Positions 7,294-51,743 of a stretch of 64,000 nucleotides of DNA are shown here, in pieces (the first letter of the stretch is position 1; each line of letters starts with the position of its first letter). Source of the stretch: Gemmatirosa kalamazoonensis (GTDB lineage Bacteria > Gemmatimonadota > Gemmatimonadetes > Gemmatimonadales > Gemmatimonadaceae); contig NZ_CP007128.1 in NCBI RefSeq assembly GCF_000522985.1, positions 2,216,220 to 2,280,219 on the forward strand, in the 5' to 3' direction. The notes below the pieces were generated by a model, which saw nothing but the letters and a program-made list of their open reading frames with translations, had not been told where the DNA came from and searched no databases. The position numbers and the translations under genes are program-made.

Positions 7294-8676
7294 GTGCAGA
7301 TCGAGTTCGCCGGCGCCGCTCGGGAAGTGACCGGGTCCTGCCACATCGTCCGCGCCAACGGCAGGACCATCCTGCTCGACTGCGGCATGTTCCAGGGCCG
7401 CCGCAAGGAGGCCGACGAGAAGAACCGTCGCCTGCCGCTCCCCGTCGACGAGATCGACGCCGTGGTGCTGAGCCACGCGCACATCGACCATGCCGGGCGC
7501 CTGCCGTTCCTCGTGGCCGAGGGCTACGACAAGCGCATCTGGGCGACGGCCGCCACGCGCGACCTGTGCGCGTACATGCTGGCCGACAGCGCGCACATCC
7601 AGGAGAAGGACGCCGAGTTTCTCGTTAGGCACGGCAAGGATCCGGTGCCGCCGCTGTACGGCATGCGCGACGCCGTGCGCGTGCAGGAGCTCATGGTGGC
7701 CGTGCCGTATCATCAGGCGTGCGACGTCGCGCCGGGCATCCGCGCCACGTTCGTCGACGCCGGCCACATCCTCGGATCCGCGTCGGTGCTGCTCGACGTC
7801 ACGAGCGATGGCGCGACGAAGCGGCTCGTGTTCTCGGGCGACGTGGGCCGCTCGGGGCTCGCCATCATCCGCGATCCGCAGCCGCCCGACGGCGCGCACG
7901 CGGTGATCATGGAGTCGACGTACGGCGACCGCGACCACCAGAGCGTGGACGGCGCGCGCGAGACGCTGGGCCGCGTGGTGCGCGAGACCGCGGCGCGCGG
8001 CGGGCGTGTGCTCGTGCCGTCGTTCGCGGTGGGACGCGCGCAGGAGCTGATCTACGACCTGCACCAGCTCGCGCGCGACCGCGCGATTCCCGAGATCCCG
8101 ATCGTCGTCGACAGCCCGCTCGCCATCGACACGACGACCGTGTTCGAGATGCACCCCGAGGTGTTCGACCGCGGCGAGACGCTCGTGCGCGAAGCGCCGC
8201 GGCTGTTCCGATTCCCGCTGCTCCGCTACACGCACACCGTCGAGGAGTCGAAGGCGCTCGCGCGGCAGCCCGGGCCCATGGTGATCATCGCCGCGTCCGG
8301 CATGGTGGAGAGCGGCCGCATCCTGCACCATCTCGCGCAGGGCGCCGCCGATCCGCGCAACACGGTGCTCATCGTCGGCTTCCAGGCGGAGCACACGTTG
8401 GGGCGGCGCATCGTCGAGCGCCGCGAGACGCTGAAGATCTTCGGCGAGCTCGTGCCGCTGCGCGCGCGCGTCGAGGTGCTGAACGGCTACAGCGCGCACG
8501 CCGACCGCAACGAGCTGCGTGCGTGGCTCGACGCCGTGCGCGCGACGTCGCCCGCGCTGGGCCGCGTGTATCTCGTGCACGGCGAGCCGCCGGCGCAGGA
8601 CGCGCTGGCCGCGTCGCTGCGCGCCGCGAGCTACGACGTGCGGGTGCCCGAGCCCGGGCAGCGGGAGGAGGTATGA
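7294..8676 (+). CDS. Metallo-beta-lactamase / beta-CASP RNA-processing exonuclease family protein
   Basis: A 460-residue protein. The GTG start at 7294 is chosen because GAGGA sits 8 bases upstream; a longer GTG start at 7267 lacks this. The order is a metallo-beta-lactamase fold with the zinc motif LSHAHIDHAGRLP and later metal ligands (DAGHILGSASV, FSGDVGR), a beta-CASP insert (MESTYGDRDH, VPSFAVGRAQEL, IIAASGMVESGR) and a C-terminal RMMBL segment (VEVLNGYSAHADRNEL). This matches the bacterial YSH1/CPSF73-like family, which cleaves RNA in the cytoplasm. The stop overlaps the next gene's ATG by four bases behind a strong GGGAGGAGG site. Confidence 0.92.
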   Translation: MQIEFAGAAREVTGSCHIVRANGRTILLDCGMFQGRRKEADEKNRRLPLPVDEIDAVVLSHAHIDHAGRLPFLVAEGYDKRIWATAATRDLCAYMLADSAHIQEKDAEFLVRHGKDPVPPLYGMRDAVRVQELMVAVPYHQACDVAPGIRATFVDAGHILGSASVLLDVTSDGATKRLVFSGDVGRSGLAIIRDPQPPDGAHAVIMESTYGDRDHQSVDGARETLGRVVRETAARGGRVLVPSFAVGRAQELIYDLHQLARDRAIPEIPIVVDSPLAIDTTTVFEMHPEVFDRGETLVREAPRLFRFPLLRYTHTVEESKALARQPGPMVIIAASGMVESGRILHHLAQGAADPRNTVLIVGFQAEHTLGRRIVERRETLKIFGELVPLRARVEVLNGYSAHADRNELRAWLDAVRATSPALGRVYLVHGEPPAQDALAASLRAASYDVRVPEPGQREEV

Positions 8677-10097
8677 CGAGACGCTTCGTGAGCACGTTGG
8701 GCGTCGCGGCGCTCGCGGCGTGCGCGCACCACGTCGAGTCGAATGGACCACGCGACGTCGTGCGGGACGTCGTGCGGGTGCGCGAGGGCACACTGCGCGG
8801 CGTCGTCGACGGCGGCGTCGCGTCGTTCAAAGGCGTGCCGTTCGCCGCGCCGCCGTTGGGCGAGCTGCGATGGCACGCGCCGCGCCCGGCCGCGGCGTGG
8901 AGCGGCGTGCGCGCGGCGGACCGCTTCTCGCCGGCGTGCATGCAGCGCGCGCCCGCGGCGTTCGGGCCGTGGACGCTCGAGTTCCTGCTGCGCGGGCCGG
9001 TGAGCGAGGACTGCCTGTACCTCAACGTGTGGACCGCGGCACCGGCCGAGGGCGCGCCGCGCCCGGTACTCGTCTACGTCTACGGTGGCGGCTTCGCGAG
9101 CGGCTCGAGCGACGTGCCGGTGTACGACGGCGCGCGACTCGCCGCGAAGGGGCTCGTCGTCGTCACGATCAACTACCGCGTGGGCGCGCTCGGCTTCCTC
9201 GCGCATCCCGCGCTGTCGGCCGAGTCGCCGGACCATGCGTCGGGGAACTACGGCCTGCTCGACCAGATCGCCGCGCTGCAGTGGGTGCACGACAACGTCG
9301 CGGCGTTCGGCGGCGACCCGTCGCGCGTCACCGTGGCGGGGCAGTCCGCGGGCGCGATCTCGGTGTTCCTGCTCACCACGTCGCCACGCGCGCGGGGGCT
9401 CTTCCAGCGCGCGGTGATCGAGAGCGGGCCCGACGCGCTGGCGGCGATGGGGATGGCGACGACGCGCGCCGCGGCGCGCCCCCTCGCCGACGCCGAGCGC
9501 GCGGGCCTCGCGACGGCTCGGGCGTTAGGCACGCCGACGGTCGCCGAGCTGCGCGCGCTGCCCGCGGCCCAGCTCGTGTCGCCGCCCGGCGCCGGCCGCT
9601 TCGGCCCGGTCGTCGACGGTGCGGTGGTGCTCGACGCGCTCGCCCCCATCAACGACGTGCCGACGATCGCGGGCATGAACGCCGACGAGGGGAGCTCCGC
9701 GCCCGACTACGCCGCGGACACGGGGAAGGCGCGCGCGCGGGAGGTCGGCTTCGAGAGCCTGCGCCGCGTCCTCGCCGAGCGCTCGACGACGGCGCGCACA
9801 CCGGCGTACGCGTACTACTTCGACCGCGTGATCCCGTGGCCGGAGCACCCGGAGTTCGGCGCGTTCCACACCTCGGAGGTGCCGTACGTGTTCGGGACGC
9901 TCGACGTGCTGCCGCGTCCGTGGACGGCGGAGGACCGGCGGCTCTCCGAGACGATGATGGCGTACTGGGTCAACTTCGCCGCGCGCGGCGATCCGAACGG
10001 CCCCGGGCTCCCCACGTGGCCCGCGTTCGCGCCCGACGGCGCGACGGTCCTGGAGCTCGGCCCGCGCACCGGGCCGATCGCCGCGGCGCCGCGGTGA
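8673..10097 (+). CDS. Type-B carboxylesterase/lipase family lipoprotein
   Basis: A 474-residue alpha/beta hydrolase. It begins with a lipoprotein-type signal ending in LAAC (Cys about residue 16). Family motifs are SEDCLYLNVW, the oxyanion-loop VYVYGGGFASGSS, the nucleophile elbow AGQSAGA (catalytic Ser), an acidic residue in NADEGSS and the catalytic His in AFHTSEVPYVFG. It is slightly shorter than the usual 500 residues, missing part of the segment after DEG. Its start overlaps the RNase gene, so the two are probably co-translated. It likely hydrolyses esters in the periplasm or cell envelope; the substrate is unknown. Confidence 0.9.
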   Translation: MTRRFVSTLGVAALAACAHHVESNGPRDVVRDVVRVREGTLRGVVDGGVASFKGVPFAAPPLGELRWHAPRPAAAWSGVRAADRFSPACMQRAPAAFGPWTLEFLLRGPVSEDCLYLNVWTAAPAEGAPRPVLVYVYGGGFASGSSDVPVYDGARLAAKGLVVVTINYRVGALGFLAHPALSAESPDHASGNYGLLDQIAALQWVHDNVAAFGGDPSRVTVAGQSAGAISVFLLTTSPRARGLFQRAVIESGPDALAAMGMATTRAAARPLADAERAGLATARALGTPTVAELRALPAAQLVSPPGAGRFGPVVDGAVVLDALAPINDVPTIAGMNADEGSSAPDYAADTGKARAREVGFESLRRVLAERSTTARTPAYAYYFDRVIPWPEHPEFGAFHTSEVPYVFGTLDVLPRPWTAEDRRLSETMMAYWVNFAARGDPNGPGLPTWPAFAPDGATVLELGPRTGPIAAAPR

Positions 10098-32867: not shown

Positions 32868-33545
32868 ATGCGCGTGTTGCTCGTCGAGGACGATCCGAAG
32901 ATCGCGGCCGTGCTGCGCGCGGGGCTCGCGGAGCACGAGATCCAGGTCGTGCGCGCCGGCACGTATCGCGACGGGCTCGCGCGCGCGGTCGGCGGCGGCT
33001 TCGACCTCTGTCTGCTCGACGTCATGCTCCCCGGCGGCAGCGGGTTCGATCTGTGCCGCGAGCTGCGCGCGCGCGGCGTCGGGACGCCGATCCTCATGCT
33101 CACCGCGCGCGACACGGTCGACGATCGCGTCACGGGCCTCGACGTGGGCGCCGACGACTACCTCACGAAGCCGTTCGCGTTGCGCGAGCTGCTCGCCCGC
33201 ATGCGCGCGCTCGCCCGGCGCGGCGCGCGTGGCGCGCGCGGCGCGTGGGAGACGGTGCGCGTGGCGGACCTCGAGGTGGACCTCGCCGCGCATCGCGTGC
33301 GACGCGCCGGCGCGCCGATCGAGCTGACGGCGAAGGAGTTCGCGCTGCTCGAGCTCTTCGTGCGCCACCGCGACCAGGTCGTCGACCGCGCGGCGATCAC
33401 GGCGCAGGTGTGGGACGAGAACCACGACCCGTTCACGAACGTGCTCGAGGTGCTCGTGCGCCGCCTGCGCCGCAAGATCGACGACGACTACGAGCCGAAG
33501 CTGATTCACACGCTGCGCGGCGCGGGGTACCGGTTCGGTGTCTGA
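32868..33545 (+). CDS. OmpR/PhoB-family response regulator
   Basis: A 225-residue regulator. The receiver has the acidic pair VEDD, phospho-acceptor Asp51 (LCLLDVMLPGG), LTARD and Lys in YLTKPF. The C-terminal winged helix reads IELTAKEFALLELFVRHRDQVVDRAAITAQVWD...NVLEVLVRRLRRKID...LIHTLRGAGYRFG. It overlaps the following kinase gene by 8 bases, forming a two-component pair directly upstream of the TolC/adaptor/RND operon, which it probably controls. Confidence 0.95.
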   Translation: MRVLLVEDDPKIAAVLRAGLAEHEIQVVRAGTYRDGLARAVGGGFDLCLLDVMLPGGSGFDLCRELRARGVGTPILMLTARDTVDDRVTGLDVGADDYLTKPFALRELLARMRALARRGARGARGAWETVRVADLEVDLAAHRVRRAGAPIELTAKEFALLELFVRHRDQVVDRAAITAQVWDENHDPFTNVLEVLVRRLRRKIDDDYEPKLIHTLRGAGYRFGV

Positions 33546-34869
33546 CGACCGGCGAACCGCGCGCGGGCCGTTAGGCGCGCTGCGGCGACAGCTCATCGGC
33601 TGGTACGTCGCGACGTTCTGCGCCGTGCTCGCGCTGCTGCTCGGCGGCCTCTATCTCGCCATCCGGCACCAGTTCCGCACGGACCTCGACCGCTCGCTCG
33701 CGGACGCGACGGAGGAGCTCGAGCGCGCCGCGCGCATCCGTGAGATGGAGGCGAGCGCCACCGGCCACGTCGTCGACGCGGTCGACGAGCTGCACGTTCC
33801 CGACCGCGCGCTGTACCTGCTCGACGGCGCCGGCCGCCCGGTGAAGCCCGCGCGCGTCGACGCGTGGATCCGCGCCGCCGCCGAGCGCGCGGGCCATGGT
33901 CCGGTCGACGTCGACCACGAGACGGAAGGCGCGCACCCGCGCACGCTCCGGCTGCACGCCGAGCGGTTCGCGCTCGCGAGCGGCGCGCGCATGATCGCCG
34001 TCGCCGTCGCCGACCAGGTGGAGCTGGAGGATCGCTACGCGGAGCTCATCGCCGCGTTCGGCGGCGCGTCGCTGTTCGCCGTCGTGCTCGTGACCGGCGC
34101 GGTGTGGCTGCTGCTGCGGCAGTCCACCGCGCCGGTGGAGCGCAACATCGCGCACATGCGCCGCTTCATGGCCGACGCCGCGCACGAGCTGCGCACGCCG
34201 ATCACCGTGCTGCGGAGCAGCGCCGAGGTCGCGCTGCAGCAGCCGCGCGACGCGGCCGCGTATGCCGCGGCGCTCGGCCGCATCGAGGAGGAAGGCCGTC
34301 GCATGGGGCGCATCGTCGAGGACCTGCTCACGCTCGCCCGCGCCGACGCCGGCGAGCGGCCGATCGCGCGCGCCCGCGTCTTCCTCGACGACGTGACGCT
34401 CGACGCGGTCGGTGCCGCGCGCGCGCTCGCCGCGTCGAAGGGCGTCGAGCTGTCGGTCGACGAGTTCGAGGAGGCTGCCGTCGACGGCGACGCCACGCTG
34501 CTGCGGCAGCTCGTGATGATCCTGCTCGACAACGCCGTGAAGTTCACGCCGCGGGGCGGCCACGTGCGCGTGCGCGTCGGCGACAGCGCGGGGCGCGCGA
34601 CGCTCCTCGTCGCCGACGACGGCGTCGGCGTGCCGGTCGAGCAGCTGCCGCACGTGTTCGAGCGCTTCTGGCGCGGCGAGGCGTCGCGCGATCGCGGCGA
34701 CGGAGCAGACGGCGCCGACGGCGCGGGGCTCGGCCTCGCGATCGCGCGCTGGATCACGACGGCGCACGGCGGCGACATCCGCCTCGAGCCCGCGCCCGCG
34801 GGCGGCACCGTGGTGCGCGTGACGCTCCCGCCGGCGAACGGCGCAGCGCCCGCCGTGTCATCCCCCTGA
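33538..34869 (+). CDS. Membrane sensor histidine kinase
   Basis: A 443-residue kinase with a GTG start overlapping the response-regulator gene. It has two transmembrane helices (about 20-42 and 170-192) around a periplasmic domain of about 125 residues. There is no clear HAMP. HisKA follows with His216 in DAAHELRTPITVLRSSAEVAL and HATPase with DNAVKFTPRGG, DDGVGVP and GAGLGLAIARWITTAHGG. This resembles the CusS/TctE-type sensors that control efflux operons. The signal is not identifiable; the short repeat DGADGADGAG precedes the G2 box. Confidence 0.92.
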   Translation: MSDDRRTARGPLGALRRQLIGWYVATFCAVLALLLGGLYLAIRHQFRTDLDRSLADATEELERAARIREMEASATGHVVDAVDELHVPDRALYLLDGAGRPVKPARVDAWIRAAAERAGHGPVDVDHETEGAHPRTLRLHAERFALASGARMIAVAVADQVELEDRYAELIAAFGGASLFAVVLVTGAVWLLLRQSTAPVERNIAHMRRFMADAAHELRTPITVLRSSAEVALQQPRDAAAYAAALGRIEEEGRRMGRIVEDLLTLARADAGERPIARARVFLDDVTLDAVGAARALAASKGVELSVDEFEEAAVDGDATLLRQLVMILLDNAVKFTPRGGHVRVRVGDSAGRATLLVADDGVGVPVEQLPHVFERFWRGEASRDRGDGADGADGAGLGLAIARWITTAHGGDIRLEPAPAGGTVVRVTLPPANGAAPAVSSP

Positions 34870-44478: not shown

Positions 44479-44595
44479 GCGGTACGGAAGGCGGCCACGA
44501 CCGAAGATGATCACCGGAAGCTGTCGACGGCATGACAGGCGGGTCCGTCTCGCGTGGACCCCGGTGCCGGAACGCACTCTGCACGTCCGGCGCCC

Positions 44596-46587
44596 ATGAC
44601 CACCGCCGCTCTCGACAGGCCCGCCGCCGTCGCCCCCGCCCGCGCGCGCCACCCCGTCGTCGTGTTCGCCGGGCTGATGCTCGTCATGCTCCTCTCGGCC
44701 CTCGACTCGACCATCGTCGCGACCGCGCTCCCGACCATCGTGTCGGAGCTCGGTGGCCTCGAGCGGCTCGCGTGGGTCGTGACGGCGTACCTGCTCGCCC
44801 AGACCGTCGTCACGCCGCTGTACGGCAAGCTCGGGGACCTGTACGGCCGCAAGCGCGTGCTGCAGGCCGCGATCGTCGTCTTTCTCGCTGGCTCGGTGCT
44901 GTGCGGCGCGAGCCGCAGCATGCTCCAGCTCATCCTGTTCCGCGCGATCCAGGGCATCGGCGGCGGAGGACTCGTCGTCGGCACGCAGGCGGCCATCGGC
45001 GACATCGTGCCGCCGCGCGAGCGTGGACGCTACCAGGGGATCTTCGGCGCCGTGTTCGGCGTGTCCAGCATCGCGGGGCCGCTGCTCGGCGGATTCTTCA
45101 CGACGCACCTGTCGTGGCGCTGGATCTTCTACGTGAACCTCCCGCTCGGCGCCATCGCGGTCGTCGTGCTCGCGGCCACGCTCCCCTCGTCGACGAGCCG
45201 GGCGCGGCACGTCGTGGACTACCTCGGCGCCGGGCTGCTCGCCGCGGCGCTCGCCGGCGTCGTGCTGCTCACGGACCTCGGCGGCACGACGTACCCGTGG
45301 GGCTCCGCGCCGATCCTCGCGTTAGGCGCGGCGTCCGTGCTGTCCCTCGCCGCGTTCGTCCTCGTCGAGCGGCGGGCCGCGGAGCCGGTGCTGCCGCCGC
45401 GGCTGTTCCGCAACCGCGTGTTCGTCGTGAGCGGCGCCGTGGGGCTCATCGTCGGCTTCGCGATGTTCGGCTCCATCACGTACCTGCCGCTGTTCCTCCA
45501 GGTCGTGCGCGGCGCGAGCCCCACCGCGTCGGGGCTCGAGCTGCTGCCGATGATGGGCGGCATGCTGGTGACGTCGATCACCGCCGGACAGCTCATCAGC
45601 CGCAGCGGACGCTACAAGATCTTTCCCGTCGCCGGCACCGCCGTGATGACGCTCGGCCTCGCGCTGCTCTCGCGGCTGCGCGCCGACACGGGCGTCGGCA
45701 CGGCGTCGCTGTACATGCTCGTGCTGGGCATGGGCATGGGGATGACGATGCAGGTGCTCGTGCTCGCGGTGCAGAACGCGGTGGAGTACGAGGACCTCGG
45801 CGTCGCCACGTCGGGCGCCACACTCTTCCGGTCGATCGGTGGCTCGGTCGGCACGGCGGTCCTCGGCGCGATCTTCGCCGGAAGGCTCGCTGCGACGCTC
45901 GCCCGCACCATGCCGCCGGGCGGGATGGGTGGCGGCGCACACGTGAGCCCGGAGTCGCTGCGCGCGCTTCCCGCGGCGCTCCGCGAGACGTACGTCACGG
46001 CGTTCACCGGCGCGTTGGGCACCGTGTTCGTCGTCGCGGCGGCGATCGGCGCGCTCGCGTTCGTGCTGAGCTGGGCGCTCGAGGAGAAGCCGCTGCGCGA
46101 GACCGTCGCCGCGAAGAGCACGGAGGTCGGCGAGGCGATCGCCATGCCGGCGGAGGACGACTCGCTCACCCAGGTCGCGCAGGGCCTCGCCGCGCTGTCG
46201 CGTCGCGACGTGCAGAAGCGGCTCCTCGAGCGCACCGCGGAGCGTGCCGGTGTCGACCTGCCGGCCGCCGAGTGCTGGCTGCTCGCGCGGCTCGACGAGA
46301 ACCCCGCGCTCGACGTCGCCGCGTTAGGCAGGGCGCGCGGCATCCAGCCCGCGCGCCTCGCGACCGCGCTGCGCGTGCTGCTCAACCGCGGCCTCGTGAC
46401 ACGCGCGCCGCAGGGCGACGCCCACCCGCTCACTCCGTCCGGCGACGCGGTCCTCGAGCGCCTCGTCACCGCGCGTCTCGACTGGCTGCGCGACGCGCTC
46501 TCGGGCTGGGCGCCCGAGCGGCACGCGGAGCTGGCCGACCTGATGCGACGCCTGGCCGGCGAAGAGATGCGCATCTCGCCGGCGTGA
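44596..46587 (+). CDS. DHA2-family MFS efflux pump fused to a C-terminal MarR-like domain
   Basis: A 663-residue protein. Residues about 15-500 are a 14-helix drug:H+ antiporter-2 transporter (LDSTIVATALPTIVSELGG, YGKLGDLYGRKRVL, GRYQGIFGAVFGVSSIAGPLLGG). After the last helix, about 150 residues form a winged-helix-like domain (LTQVAQGLAALSRRDVQKRLLERTAERAGVDLPAAECWLLARLDENPALDVAALGRARGIQPARLATALRVLLNRGLVTRAP...LTPSGDAVLERL) that reads like a MarR regulator. The cytoplasmic tail may sense substrate or act at DNA from the membrane. The ATG at 44596 follows the family start. Confidence 0.9.
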   Translation: MTTAALDRPAAVAPARARHPVVVFAGLMLVMLLSALDSTIVATALPTIVSELGGLERLAWVVTAYLLAQTVVTPLYGKLGDLYGRKRVLQAAIVVFLAGSVLCGASRSMLQLILFRAIQGIGGGGLVVGTQAAIGDIVPPRERGRYQGIFGAVFGVSSIAGPLLGGFFTTHLSWRWIFYVNLPLGAIAVVVLAATLPSSTSRARHVVDYLGAGLLAAALAGVVLLTDLGGTTYPWGSAPILALGAASVLSLAAFVLVERRAAEPVLPPRLFRNRVFVVSGAVGLIVGFAMFGSITYLPLFLQVVRGASPTASGLELLPMMGGMLVTSITAGQLISRSGRYKIFPVAGTAVMTLGLALLSRLRADTGVGTASLYMLVLGMGMGMTMQVLVLAVQNAVEYEDLGVATSGATLFRSIGGSVGTAVLGAIFAGRLAATLARTMPPGGMGGGAHVSPESLRALPAALRETYVTAFTGALGTVFVVAAAIGALAFVLSWALEEKPLRETVAAKSTEVGEAIAMPAEDDSLTQVAQGLAALSRRDVQKRLLERTAERAGVDLPAAECWLLARLDENPALDVAALGRARGIQPARLATALRVLLNRGLVTRAPQGDAHPLTPSGDAVLERLVTARLDWLRDALSGWAPERHAELADLMRRLAGEEMRISPA

Positions 46588-48978: not shown

Positions 48979-48988
48979 CTGCCACTGT

Positions 48989-49002
48989 ATTGACATGTCA
49001 AT
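48989..49002. promoter_or_regulatory. BlaI/MecI-type operator
   Basis: ATTGACATGTCAAT is a perfect 14-bp palindrome 18 bases before the blaI ATG. It contains a TTGACA -35-like box and the ACATGT core common in BlaI-family operators. An AGGAGG site follows at 49011. Autorepression by the downstream BlaI is likely. Confidence 0.65.
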
Positions 49003-49020
49003 GCACTGACAGGAGGCGTC

Positions 49021-49416
49021 ATGTCGACCGCACCGCACGCGGACCTCGGGCCGCGCGAGCGACAGATCATGGAGATCGTGTACCGACGCGGGCAGGCCAC
49101 CGCGGAGGAGGTCCGGGCCGAGCTCCCGGACGCGGTCAGCAACTCCGCCGTCCGCGGCATGCTCCGGCTCCTCGAGGAGAAGGGCCTGCTCCGCCACGAG
49201 CAGTGCGGCGTGCGCTACGTCTACCTGCCGACGCGCGACACCGAGCAGGTCCGCCGGTCCGCGCTCCGCAACGTCGTCGGCACGTTCTTCAACGACTCGG
49301 CCAGCGCCGCCGTCGCCGCGATGCTCGGCGTGTACGAGGATCGCCTCACCGACGACGAGCTCGAACGACTCTCCGCCATCATCGACGACGCGCGGCGGCG
49401 CGGAGGTGCGGCATGA
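49021..49416 (+). CDS. blaI: BlaI/MecI-family transcriptional repressor
   Basis: A 131-residue winged-helix repressor (LGPRERQIMEIVYRRGQATAEEVRAELPDAVSNSAVRGMLRLLEEKGLLRHEQCGVRYVYLPT), with a C-terminal dimerisation helix region (FFNDSASAAVAAML...LTDDELERLSAIIDDARRRG). In classic systems the paired BlaR1 protease triggers its cleavage. The stop overlaps the M56 peptidase gene by four bases. The gene symbol reflects family membership; a link to beta-lactam resistance is not shown, as no beta-lactamase gene is adjacent. Confidence 0.92.
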   Translation: MSTAPHADLGPRERQIMEIVYRRGQATAEEVRAELPDAVSNSAVRGMLRLLEEKGLLRHEQCGVRYVYLPTRDTEQVRRSALRNVVGTFFNDSASAAVAAMLGVYEDRLTDDELERLSAIIDDARRRGGAA

Positions 49417-51743
49417 GCACGCTCGCCATCGAGATCGTCGCCAAGGCAACGCTGCTCCTCGCGCTCGCCGGGTTGATCGCCGCTTCGCTGCGCTCCGCCA
49501 CGGCGGCCACGCGCCACGCGCTGTGGGCCGTCGCGCTCGGCGCGCTGCTCGTGCTCCCGGCGACGATCGCGTTGGGCCCGCGCTGGCGCGTGCCCGTGCT
49601 CGCCGTGCGCGACACGTCGAGCGCCCACGGCACCGCGCGGCCGCCGCTCCCGCGCGCCGTCGTCGCGCCCCTGCCCGCGGCGCTCGTCGGTGACGACGCC
49701 GGACCACCCGCGCGCCTGAAGACGCGCGGCGCCGACTCGCCGAGTGCGCCGCAGCCGATCGATCTCGCGACGCTCGCCGCCGCGATCTGGGCTGCTGGTG
49801 CGGTCGCGCTCCTCCTTCGTCTCGTCGCCGGCCACGTCGCGTTGGGCCGTCTCGCGCGCCGCGCCGAGCGCATCGACGACGCGTGGGGAGAGCTGCTCGA
49901 CGACGAGTGCGCGCGCGCCGGCGTGCGCGCGCCGGTGCGGCTGCTGCTGCACGAGGGCGCGGCGTCGCCCGCCACGTGGGGCGTGCGTGCGCCGGTGATC
50001 GTGCTTCCGGCCAGCGCCGCCGACTGGGCCGAGCCGCGTCGCCGTACAGCGCTGCGTCACGAGCTCGCGCACGTCGCGCGGCGCGACGCGCTCGTGCAGC
50101 TCGTCTCGAGCGCCGCATGCGCGCTGTACTGGTTCCATCCCGGCGCGTGGCTCGCCGCGCGCCGGCTCGTCGCGGAACGCGAGCGCGCGTGCGACGACCG
50201 CGTGCTCGCGTTGGGCAGCGCGCCGGCGGAGTACGCGTCGCAGCTGCTCGACATGGCGCGACTCGCGCGCGACTCCGGTCTCCCCGCGCTCGTCACCGTG
50301 TCGATGGCGCGGCGCTCGGAGCTCGAGGGGCGGCTGCTCGACGTGCTCGACCCGCGACGCGCGCGCGGCCGACCGTCGCGCGCCGCTGGCGCCGCCGGCG
50401 TGCTGCTCGCGTGCGCGCTCGTCGTCGGGCTCTCGGCGTTCCGCGCGGTGCCGCGCGCCGCGAGCCCGTCGACCGTCGTGCCGCGCACGCCCGTCGAGCC
50501 GCTGCGGGCCGCGCTCGTGCCCGACGTGGGCGCGCTCGCACCCGTCGTCCATACGCGCCAGCGCGACGACTCCACGTTCGAGCGTGCGCTACCCGCGTCG
50601 CGCGGCGGCACGCTCACGCTCGACCTGCGCACCGGCGGCGCGGTCGACATCACCGGCACCGACGACGACCGCGTGACGGTGCGCGGCACGCTCGCCGGCC
50701 GCGCGTGGCGCAGCACGCGCGTTTCGCTCGAGCCGTTGTTGGGCGGCGGCGTGCGGCTGCGCGCGGTGTACGACGGCACGGAGCGGATCCAGAGCTCGTC
50801 GCACCGCTTCGTCATCCGCGTGCCGCGGCGCTACGACGTGCAGCTGTCGTCGGCGGGCGGCTCCGTCACCGTGCGGGACCTCGAGGGCACGCTCACCGGA
50901 TCGACGGGCGGCGGCGAGATCGAGATCCAGCGCGTGACCGGCCATGCGCAGCTCTCCACCGGCGGCGGCGACGTGCACGTGTCCGACGCGCGGTTGACCG
51001 GTCGCGTCGCCACCGGCGGCGGTGAGGTGCTCATCGAGCGCGTCGTCGGCGGCCTCACCGGACACTCCGGGACCGGCGACGTGACCTACGCGGGCCGCGG
51101 CACGAGCGTGTCCATCGAGCCGTCGTACGAAGACGTCGTGCGGTCGCGCTCCACGACGACGTACCTGGACGCGCGCCGCAAGCTCGCCGACGTCGACACG
51201 GTGCGCGGCGTGGAGGGCGGCGCGATCCGCCGTCGCAGCTCGGGCGGCGCGATCGCGATCGAGGAGGCGCCGCGCGGCGCCGTGCTGTACACCGGCGGCG
51301 GCTCGATCACGGTCGGGCGCTCGGCGGGGCTCGTGAGCGCCACGACGGGCGGCGGCGAGATCTCGTTAGGCCCGGTGGACGGCTCGGCCGAGGGGCACAC
51401 GGGAGCCGGCGACGTCACGATCGTGGTCGTCGGCGACGGCGCGGCGCGGCACGACGTGTACGTCACCACCGGCTACGGTGCCGCCGACGTGTGGCTTCCC
51501 GCGGACATCTCCGCGCGCCTCGACCTCGAGACGGCTTACACGAACAACCTCGGACACGCCACGCACATCTACAGCGACTGGCCGATCGACCTGCGCGAGA
51601 CCGCGGACTGGGACGCGCGCGAGGGGACGCCGCGCCGCTACGTCCGCGGCAGCGCGACGCTCGGCGACGGTCGCAGCGAGGTGCGCGTGCGCATCGTGAA
51701 CGGCGACGTGCGCCTGCACCGCGGCTCGCCGCCCGGCCGCTGA
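49413..51743 (+). CDS. BlaR1-like M56 metallopeptidase fused to a DUF4097 beta-helix domain
   Basis: A 776-residue protein. Residues about 1-350 are a BlaR1/MecR1 transmembrane metallopeptidase with helices near the N-terminus, the zinc site RHELAHVARRD and the downstream ERERACDDRV. After a further helix (GAAGVLLACALVVGLSAF) comes about 350 residues of regular short strands with Gly/Thr-rich turns (LDLRTGGAVDITGTDDDRVTVRG..., STGGGEIEIQRVTGHAQLSTGGGDVHV). These match DUF4097 putative-adhesin repeats. The penicillin-binding sensor of true BlaR1 is absent, so a different extracellular signal is inferred. Confidence 0.87.
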   Translation: MSTLAIEIVAKATLLLALAGLIAASLRSATAATRHALWAVALGALLVLPATIALGPRWRVPVLAVRDTSSAHGTARPPLPRAVVAPLPAALVGDDAGPPARLKTRGADSPSAPQPIDLATLAAAIWAAGAVALLLRLVAGHVALGRLARRAERIDDAWGELLDDECARAGVRAPVRLLLHEGAASPATWGVRAPVIVLPASAADWAEPRRRTALRHELAHVARRDALVQLVSSAACALYWFHPGAWLAARRLVAERERACDDRVLALGSAPAEYASQLLDMARLARDSGLPALVTVSMARRSELEGRLLDVLDPRRARGRPSRAAGAAGVLLACALVVGLSAFRAVPRAASPSTVVPRTPVEPLRAALVPDVGALAPVVHTRQRDDSTFERALPASRGGTLTLDLRTGGAVDITGTDDDRVTVRGTLAGRAWRSTRVSLEPLLGGGVRLRAVYDGTERIQSSSHRFVIRVPRRYDVQLSSAGGSVTVRDLEGTLTGSTGGGEIEIQRVTGHAQLSTGGGDVHVSDARLTGRVATGGGEVLIERVVGGLTGHSGTGDVTYAGRGTSVSIEPSYEDVVRSRSTTTYLDARRKLADVDTVRGVEGGAIRRRSSGGAIAIEEAPRGAVLYTGGGSITVGRSAGLVSATTGGGEISLGPVDGSAEGHTGAGDVTIVVVGDGAARHDVYVTTGYGAADVWLPADISARLDLETAYTNNLGHATHIYSDWPIDLRETADWDAREGTPRRYVRGSATLGDGRSEVRVRIVNGDVRLHRGSPPGR

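Follow-up and report, generated by a model that had tools for sequence, protein, structure and literature searches.

BlaR1 is commonly described as a device for antibiotic resistance, and the model given in the part of PMC7593790 available to us, in which a change in the outer domain leads to activation of the protease, is used here as an analogy. The Toastrack domain (DUF4097) occurs, according to the part of PMC11237479 that we could consult, in the Lia and PSP envelope-stress systems. In a 64,000-nucleotide stretch of the genome of Gemmatirosa kalamazoonensis (the window; NZ_CP007128.1, positions 2,216,220 to 2,280,219, within a 5.31-Mb contig of a 7.48-Mb genome of four contigs), a gene for a BlaI-type repressor is followed by one for an M56 protease fused to a predicted Toastrack domain, a fusion that recurs in the phylum. 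This pair represents a BlaI-M56 variant with a Toastrack domain, one of several M56 sensor variants in Gemmatimonadota. On balance, we think it probable that the two genes form an autoregulated BlaI/BlaR1-like pair with an extracytoplasmic Toastrack sensor, passing an envelope or peptide signal to secreted hydrolases. The literature searched, which included few subscription journals and in which long result lists were viewed in part, contained no description of an M56-Toastrack pair and no paper joining DUF4097 with M56 or BlaR1 with Toastrack.

Protease and predicted sensor

The repressor gene, blaI (49021-49416, plus strand), encodes 131 residues of the Penicillinase_R family (PF03965, 88.8 bits, E 4.1e-25, cut-off 22.6), in agreement with the normal BlaI repressor of the preliminary description, and overlaps by 4 bp (ATGA) with the M56-Toastrack transducer gene on the same strand (49413-51743, plus strand; 776 residues), the full span of which was matched in relatives. 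The protease region, including membrane segments 1-3 (49437-50336, plus strand; residues 9-308), scored 110.4 bits with PF05569 (cut-off 31) and contains HELAH at residues 216-220 and E257. In an alignment of five fusions H216, E217, H220 and E257 were invariant, and HExxH with a Glu 41 residues past the first His was present in all 17 rows that were checked, 15 from Toastrack fusions and two from tree neighbours. When a profile of the five fusions was compared with the PDB, the protease part matched the S. aureus-type BlaR1 structures 8EXS (E 2.4e-8) and 8EXP (E 4.3e-8) and nothing else up to E 0.1, with E257 aligned to a Glu of 8EXS. The HExxH and E257 residues, which we take to be the zinc ligands, thus appear to be those of a BlaR1-type M56 protease, and the M56 assignment made earlier stands. 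Hydropathy indicated four hydrophobic segments, the fourth (50385-50441, plus strand; residues 325-343) preceded by a basic stretch; this fits the BlaR1 topology with the C-terminus outside, suggesting four helices, a cytosolic protease and an external C-terminal domain.

The putative Toastrack/DUF4097 sensor occupies residues 386-770 (50568-51722, plus strand). An AlphaFold model of residues 346-776, built with four sequences, was nearly all beta except for one low-confidence insert near residues 561-604 (mean predicted local distance difference test score, pLDDT, 73.3; predicted template modelling score, pTM, 0.52). Its best PDB match was 4QRK (E 1.2e-7, prob 1.00), with 4OPW at rank 8, and both structures are Toastrack examples in the consulted part of PMC11237479. 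In addition, the fusion of genome G171 (L128), from the same tree group, has a DUF4097 match of 28.9 bits, above the cut-off, behind its M56 domain. These results suggest a Toastrack beta-helix fold. No transpeptidase or penicillin-binding protein (PBP) family was found by Pfam at E 0.1 in the window M56 protein, and NCBIfam blaR1_generic matched residues 119-311 only, with 69 of 400 bits; because of these two results and the Toastrack match of the model, the C-terminal domain does not appear to be the class-D-beta-lactamase-like penicillin-binding sensor of BlaR1. The proposal that DUF4097 had replaced that sensor is therefore upheld, its support being indirect (G171 and the model).

Several results weigh against this assignment. 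The window protein itself scored 20.1 bits with PF13349 over residues 460-562, under the cut-off of 22.9, and two fusions, L149 and L200, lack a DUF4097 Pfam match at E 0.01; both match the window sensor by phmmer (8e-56 and 8e-17). The pTM of the sensor model is low and so are its TM-scores to the PDB matches (0.19 of the query for 4QRK), and the likeness to 4QRK is therefore one of fold type and not of detail; the model of the full-length protein was poor (pTM 0.32). A sequence search of the PDB with the sensor profile gave nothing at E 0.1. As to the extracytoplasmic place of the sensor, Toastrack domains are predicted to be intracellular in the part of PMC11237479 consulted, which speaks against it. 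In the window's genome, five free-standing DUF4097 proteins (L019-L023; five of six matches, the sixth having no open reading frame, ORF, under the filter used) have signal-peptide-like starts, as judged by eye and hydropathy. Together with the BlaR1-like topology, these starts point to a Toastrack domain outside, at odds with that prediction as far as the source was seen, and the pair offers a direct test of the two locations.

The Toastrack part may serve as a docking platform and not as a ligand sensor, in which case a bound envelope protein would restrain the protease and loss of this partner would be the signal. This alternative survives best, and it draws on the proposal, in the part of PMC11237479 available, that Toastrack sheets assemble signalling complexes, and on the long low-confidence insert in the sensor; however, no conserved partner gene stood beside the fusions in the loci read, which were mostly short contigs, and we regard it as doubtful.

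Operator and candidate targets

The operator had been placed at ATTGACATGTCAAT (48989-49002), the sole match in the window with up to three mismatches (shuffles gave a mean of 0.16). Comparison with relatives showed that two abutting 16-bp dyads, TGYYA-N6-TRRCA, meet within this sequence, and the operator instead consists of dyad 1, TGCCACTGTATTGACA (48980-48995, plus strand; matrix score 21.7), found at the same place in relatives, and dyad 2, TGTCAATGCACTGACA (48996-49011, plus strand; 26.1), both of them in the training set of the matrix. Two strong dyads (at least 16.3) were present in 14 of the 16 visible blaI promoters of fusions, with a period of 19 bp in 13 and of 16 bp in the window only; the G388 promoter had one strong and one weak dyad (10.0) at 19 bp, and that of G171 a weak site only (9.5). 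Dyads 1 and 2 were the only window sites scoring above 9, and 15 Markov copies of the window (0.96 Mb) contained seven such sites, the best of 16.6; the matrix was trained on promoter sites that it then scores, the weakest of which (16.3) is no higher than this best Markov-copy site. By its Penicillinase_R domain and the dyad operator at its own promoter, the repressor can be assigned to the BlaI/MecI family.

A double-operator pattern composed after the sites had been seen, TGYYA-N6-TRRCA-N3-TGYYA-N6-TRRCA, occurred at 37 places in 31 of 395 Gemmatimonadota genomes and nowhere in a reversed control. By our own gene calls, 30 of the 37 places lie upstream of blaI and the other seven upstream of two DUF5916 genes and the genes of an S15 peptidase, an ASDG-repeat protein, a MacB-like permease, an M16 peptidase and an alpha/beta hydrolase, with a divergent ORF also close by in the ASDG, M16 and alpha/beta-hydrolase cases. 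No beta-lactamase was found among the operator target proteins given to Pfam.

Used as a regulon probe with up to one mismatch, TTGACATGTCAA occurred at one place in the whole genome, and it was hence replaced by the dyad pattern. With TGTCAN6TGACA, again at up to one mismatch, the window's genome gave 24 sites, of which none but the pair's own two (26.1 and 21.7) scored above 12.2; the pair itself is therefore the only visible target. The count of 24 against seven for the reversed control was dropped as a sign of enrichment, the corresponding counts in five other genomes being 38/30, 22/20, 9/9, 9/3 and 42/28. A window site at 34856, TGTCATCCCCCTGACA (score 8.3), which falls at the 3' end of a called ORF (33538-34869), was taken as chance, and a site at C2:1921793 (score 11.5), upstream of a called ORF in L101, was not accepted.

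A candidate target was found in relatives. In AG39, which we take to be a single genome listed as both G198 and G211 (the two share contig numbers, coordinates and sites), a gene for a Peptidase_S15 protein of 758 residues with a signal-peptide-like start is preceded by a second double operator (20.1 and 26.9), one dyad of which is identical over 16 bases to the second dyad of the fusion promoter. Like the sites at paralogs and DUF5916 genes, this S15 operator was outside the training set of the matrix. In G347, the fusion gene is followed after 12 bp by a gene that the contig end truncates and that shares 72% identity over 494 residues with the AG39 S15 gene, and in G171 a single dyad (19.2) precedes a DUF5916 gene behind the fusion. 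The stretch of the M56-HEAT pair of AG39 had no site above 9. A double operator before a DUF5916 gene in G308 was not credited as a target of the Toastrack pair, its dyads scoring 13.9 and -1.2 on the Toastrack-type matrix.

Control of secreted hydrolases by the pair has to be set against the following. The S15 link is seen in two genomes only, by operator in AG39 and by operon in G347. An S15 match at 1e-10 was absent from G016, G193 and G179, and only distant ones were present in G192 and the window's own genome (G000), where the surrounding stretches (L211, L212 and L213) had no site above 9. In addition, the patterns searched, which did not include hybrid half-sites, gave no second operator of the pair's type in the window's genome, and no sigma-70-type promoter was found around the dyads.

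Some of these data would also fit a remnant, that is, a pair that now controls only itself, having lost its former target gene and the original spacing of its dyads. Under this reading, which we rate as unlikely, the window's genome would have neither a near S15 gene nor another site of the pair's type because the target is gone, and its promoter, the only one of the 14 two-dyad promoters with a period of 16 and not 19 bp, would have drifted in spacing; but neither reading frame is damaged, the zinc-site residues are all kept, and the genome-wide site search left hybrid half-sites uncovered.

Very unlikely, in our view, is a pair that has kept beta-lactam or cell-wall damage as its signal, with indirect control of resistance. 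A protease and repressor of the BlaR1/BlaI kind would be expected of it, but the sensor has no PBP family, the blaR1_generic match is partial, and no beta-lactamase is among the operator targets given to Pfam. At the patterns searched, the sites in this genome point to the pair's own promoter as its target and to no beta-lactam resistance gene. The preliminary description had held that the signal is something other than a beta-lactam and that no resistance gene is adjacent. The first claim is favoured by the non-PBP sensor and by the regulon check that it called for, which found the pair itself and no beta-lactam gene, whereas the nature of the signal that it suggested (surface contact, polymer or envelope state) is unproven; the second holds for the six window proteins scanned with Pfam, none of which is a beta-lactamase or PBP.

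Recurrence, related pairs and neighbouring genes

We surveyed 395 Gemmatimonadota genomes at E 1e-20, scoring up to two candidates per genome, so that M56 counts are lower bounds and a third-ranked fusion would be overlooked. The fusion profile matched, mainly across the M56 part, in at least 161 genomes, and M56-Toastrack fusions were present in at least 17 (G000, G016, G211, G347, G363, G299, G388, G308, G389, G331, G333, G171, G296, G275, G179, G192 and G193), with blaI immediately upstream in all 16 that have a visible 5' side. Three fusions are incomplete (G179 cut at the 3' end, G192 at the 5' end, and G193 with a frame broken within the M56 part), and in G296 and G275 the Toastrack part is followed by HEAT-like repeats (by Pfam for G296). 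Genes in the relatives' loci were called with a simple GC-position script and no trained gene finder. Beyond the phylum, a scan of genome contigs gave three loci, two apparently G016 and G192 contigs and the third AG39, and a whole-protein query of a plasmid collection gave one record, from Spirosoma, matching in the M56 part only. The survey of M56-DUF4097 fusions proposed earlier thus found a real and recurrent fusion, and a frameshift or split-gene artefact, for which the broken frame of G193 is the one hint, can be ruled out for all practical purposes, since 49413-51743 is here a single open frame with no internal stop and matches extend over the whole span in other genomes.

In a tree of the M56 part (45 rows), the 15 rows first labelled Toastrack all fell within one 18-row group (97/92), the other three rows of which are G171, where DUF4097 was found later, G254 and G222. 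The last two contribute M56 proteins with other ends, L141 of G254 with a DUF5128 beta-propeller match and L195 of G222 with an unmatched C-terminus, and sensors seem to have been swapped within the group. Against a single origin, the Toastrack label requires three changes on the tree, two of them forced, and one clean origin of the fusion is therefore not shown. The tree did not include G193 (broken frame), L199 (a fragment) and the own-genome pairs L010 and L011 (beyond query reach).

The window's chromosome carries four further blaI-M56 pairs, one with ASDG repeats (L008), one with HEAT repeats (L009) and two with ends that by eye resemble a TonB-receptor plug and a TonB C-terminus. The ASDG pair (L008 5353-12363, G000:C2 about 1658352-1665362) has an operator type of its own, TGCTAN6TAGCA. 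Perfect sites of this type number exactly four in the genome, and none lies outside the L008 island: blaI is preceded by two and the gene for a secreted-looking duplicate of the pair's sensor domain (8535-9680) by one, while the last falls within the 5' end of a DUF5916+CBM9 ORF as called. Other sensor-only homologs (HEAT or ASDG) lie beside M56 paralogs (L009 6006-6824, L045 12997-14442, L156 4275-5735, L193 8934-9779, L192 2797-3378 and L206 2093-2761) or, in L194 (4780-5907), behind a double operator; most have a signal-peptide-like start, and the secreted sensor copy may be a decoy or a feedback part. DUF5916+CBM9-type genes were likewise found beside M56 pairs (L008, L009, L153/L214, L192, L200 and L201) and behind double operators (L191 and L202). 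This recurrence is a clue to DUF5916, on which no paper was found in the literature searched. A sixth BlaI-type match of the window's genome (L018, G000:C4:579148-579486; 70.4 bits) is on another contig, and the M56 search gave no match there.

It is possible, and at present a tentative idea, that M56 in Gemmatimonadota is a plug-in chassis, in which a single repressor-protease engine accepts different extracytoplasmic sensors (Toastrack, HEAT, ASDG repeats, beta-propeller and TonB-like). Every version would have a dyad operator of its own and control a few nearby genes for secreted peptidases, hydrolases and DUF5916 proteins. With its sensor domain in the periplasm, the Toastrack version would then be a third, proteolytic route for sensing envelope stress or antimicrobial peptides, beside Lia-type kinases and PSP.

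In the window, the pair is flanked by msrA upstream and a convergent ORF downstream. A protein that joins a major facilitator superfamily transporter with a MarR-like C-terminal domain is encoded 2.4 kb upstream (44554-46587, plus strand; PF07690 183.9 bits, PF12802 30.4 bits). PspA, PspC, LiaIF and LiaRS partners were absent from the six Pfam-scanned window proteins, and no wider scan was aimed at them.

Proposed mechanism and comparison with known systems

In the mechanism that we propose, BlaI would occupy the two dyads, which lie immediately before the ribosome-binding site of blaI, and repress the blaI-M56 operon. The Toastrack domain, outside the inner membrane, would sense a change, most probably damage to the envelope, a partner protein in it or a peptide from outside the cell, and the fourth membrane helix would relay this to the M56 zinc protease in the cytosol; by analogy with BlaR1, BlaI would then be cut and the promoter would open. 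Output would be the operon and any co-controlled hydrolase gene, in two relatives including a secreted-looking S15-family peptidase. Cutting of the repressor by its partner protease we infer from the BlaR1 analogy, and the direction of control, as well as any output beyond the pair itself in the window's genome, would follow the same scheme. An envelope or peptide signal is favoured by the occurrence of Toastrack in the Lia/PSP systems noted above (PMC11237479, in the part seen) and by the repeated finding of peptidase and hydrolase genes behind double operators in the wider M56 group; it may be taken as a lead, not a demonstration. Since the pair fails the sensor test that defines BlaR1, that name is unsuitable, despite a BlaR1-like working on the present evidence. 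A recurrent version with another sensor and a candidate secreted peptidase as target would mark a general envelope signalling module.

Like BlaI/BlaR1 and MecI/MecR1 of Staphylococcus (MEROPS M56), the pair has its repressor gene directly before the M56 transducer gene, an HExxH zinc protease, a compatible hydropathy profile and dyad operators at its own promoter. Unlike BlaR1 and MecR1, which have a class-D-beta-lactamase-like penicillin-binding domain, it has a predicted Toastrack sensor, and its candidate target in relatives is a secreted-looking S15 peptidase. The Toastrack proteins of the Lia/PSP systems (LiaF, LiaG and VraT), as described in the part of PMC11237479 available, resemble it in that a Toastrack domain is joined to membrane segments and has a link to transcription. 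They differ in working with two-component or other helix-turn-helix systems, whereas a repressor-cutting protease would act here, and in having a Toastrack domain predicted to be intracellular, whereas topology would place it outside here. The other Gemmatimonadota blaI-M56 pairs, with HEAT, ASDG-repeat, TonB-like and beta-propeller ends, have the same types of repressor and protease and often the same double-dyad layout, but differ in the C-terminal domain and, in the M56-HEAT pairs of G016 and G363, show a TGTTGAA-type dyad.

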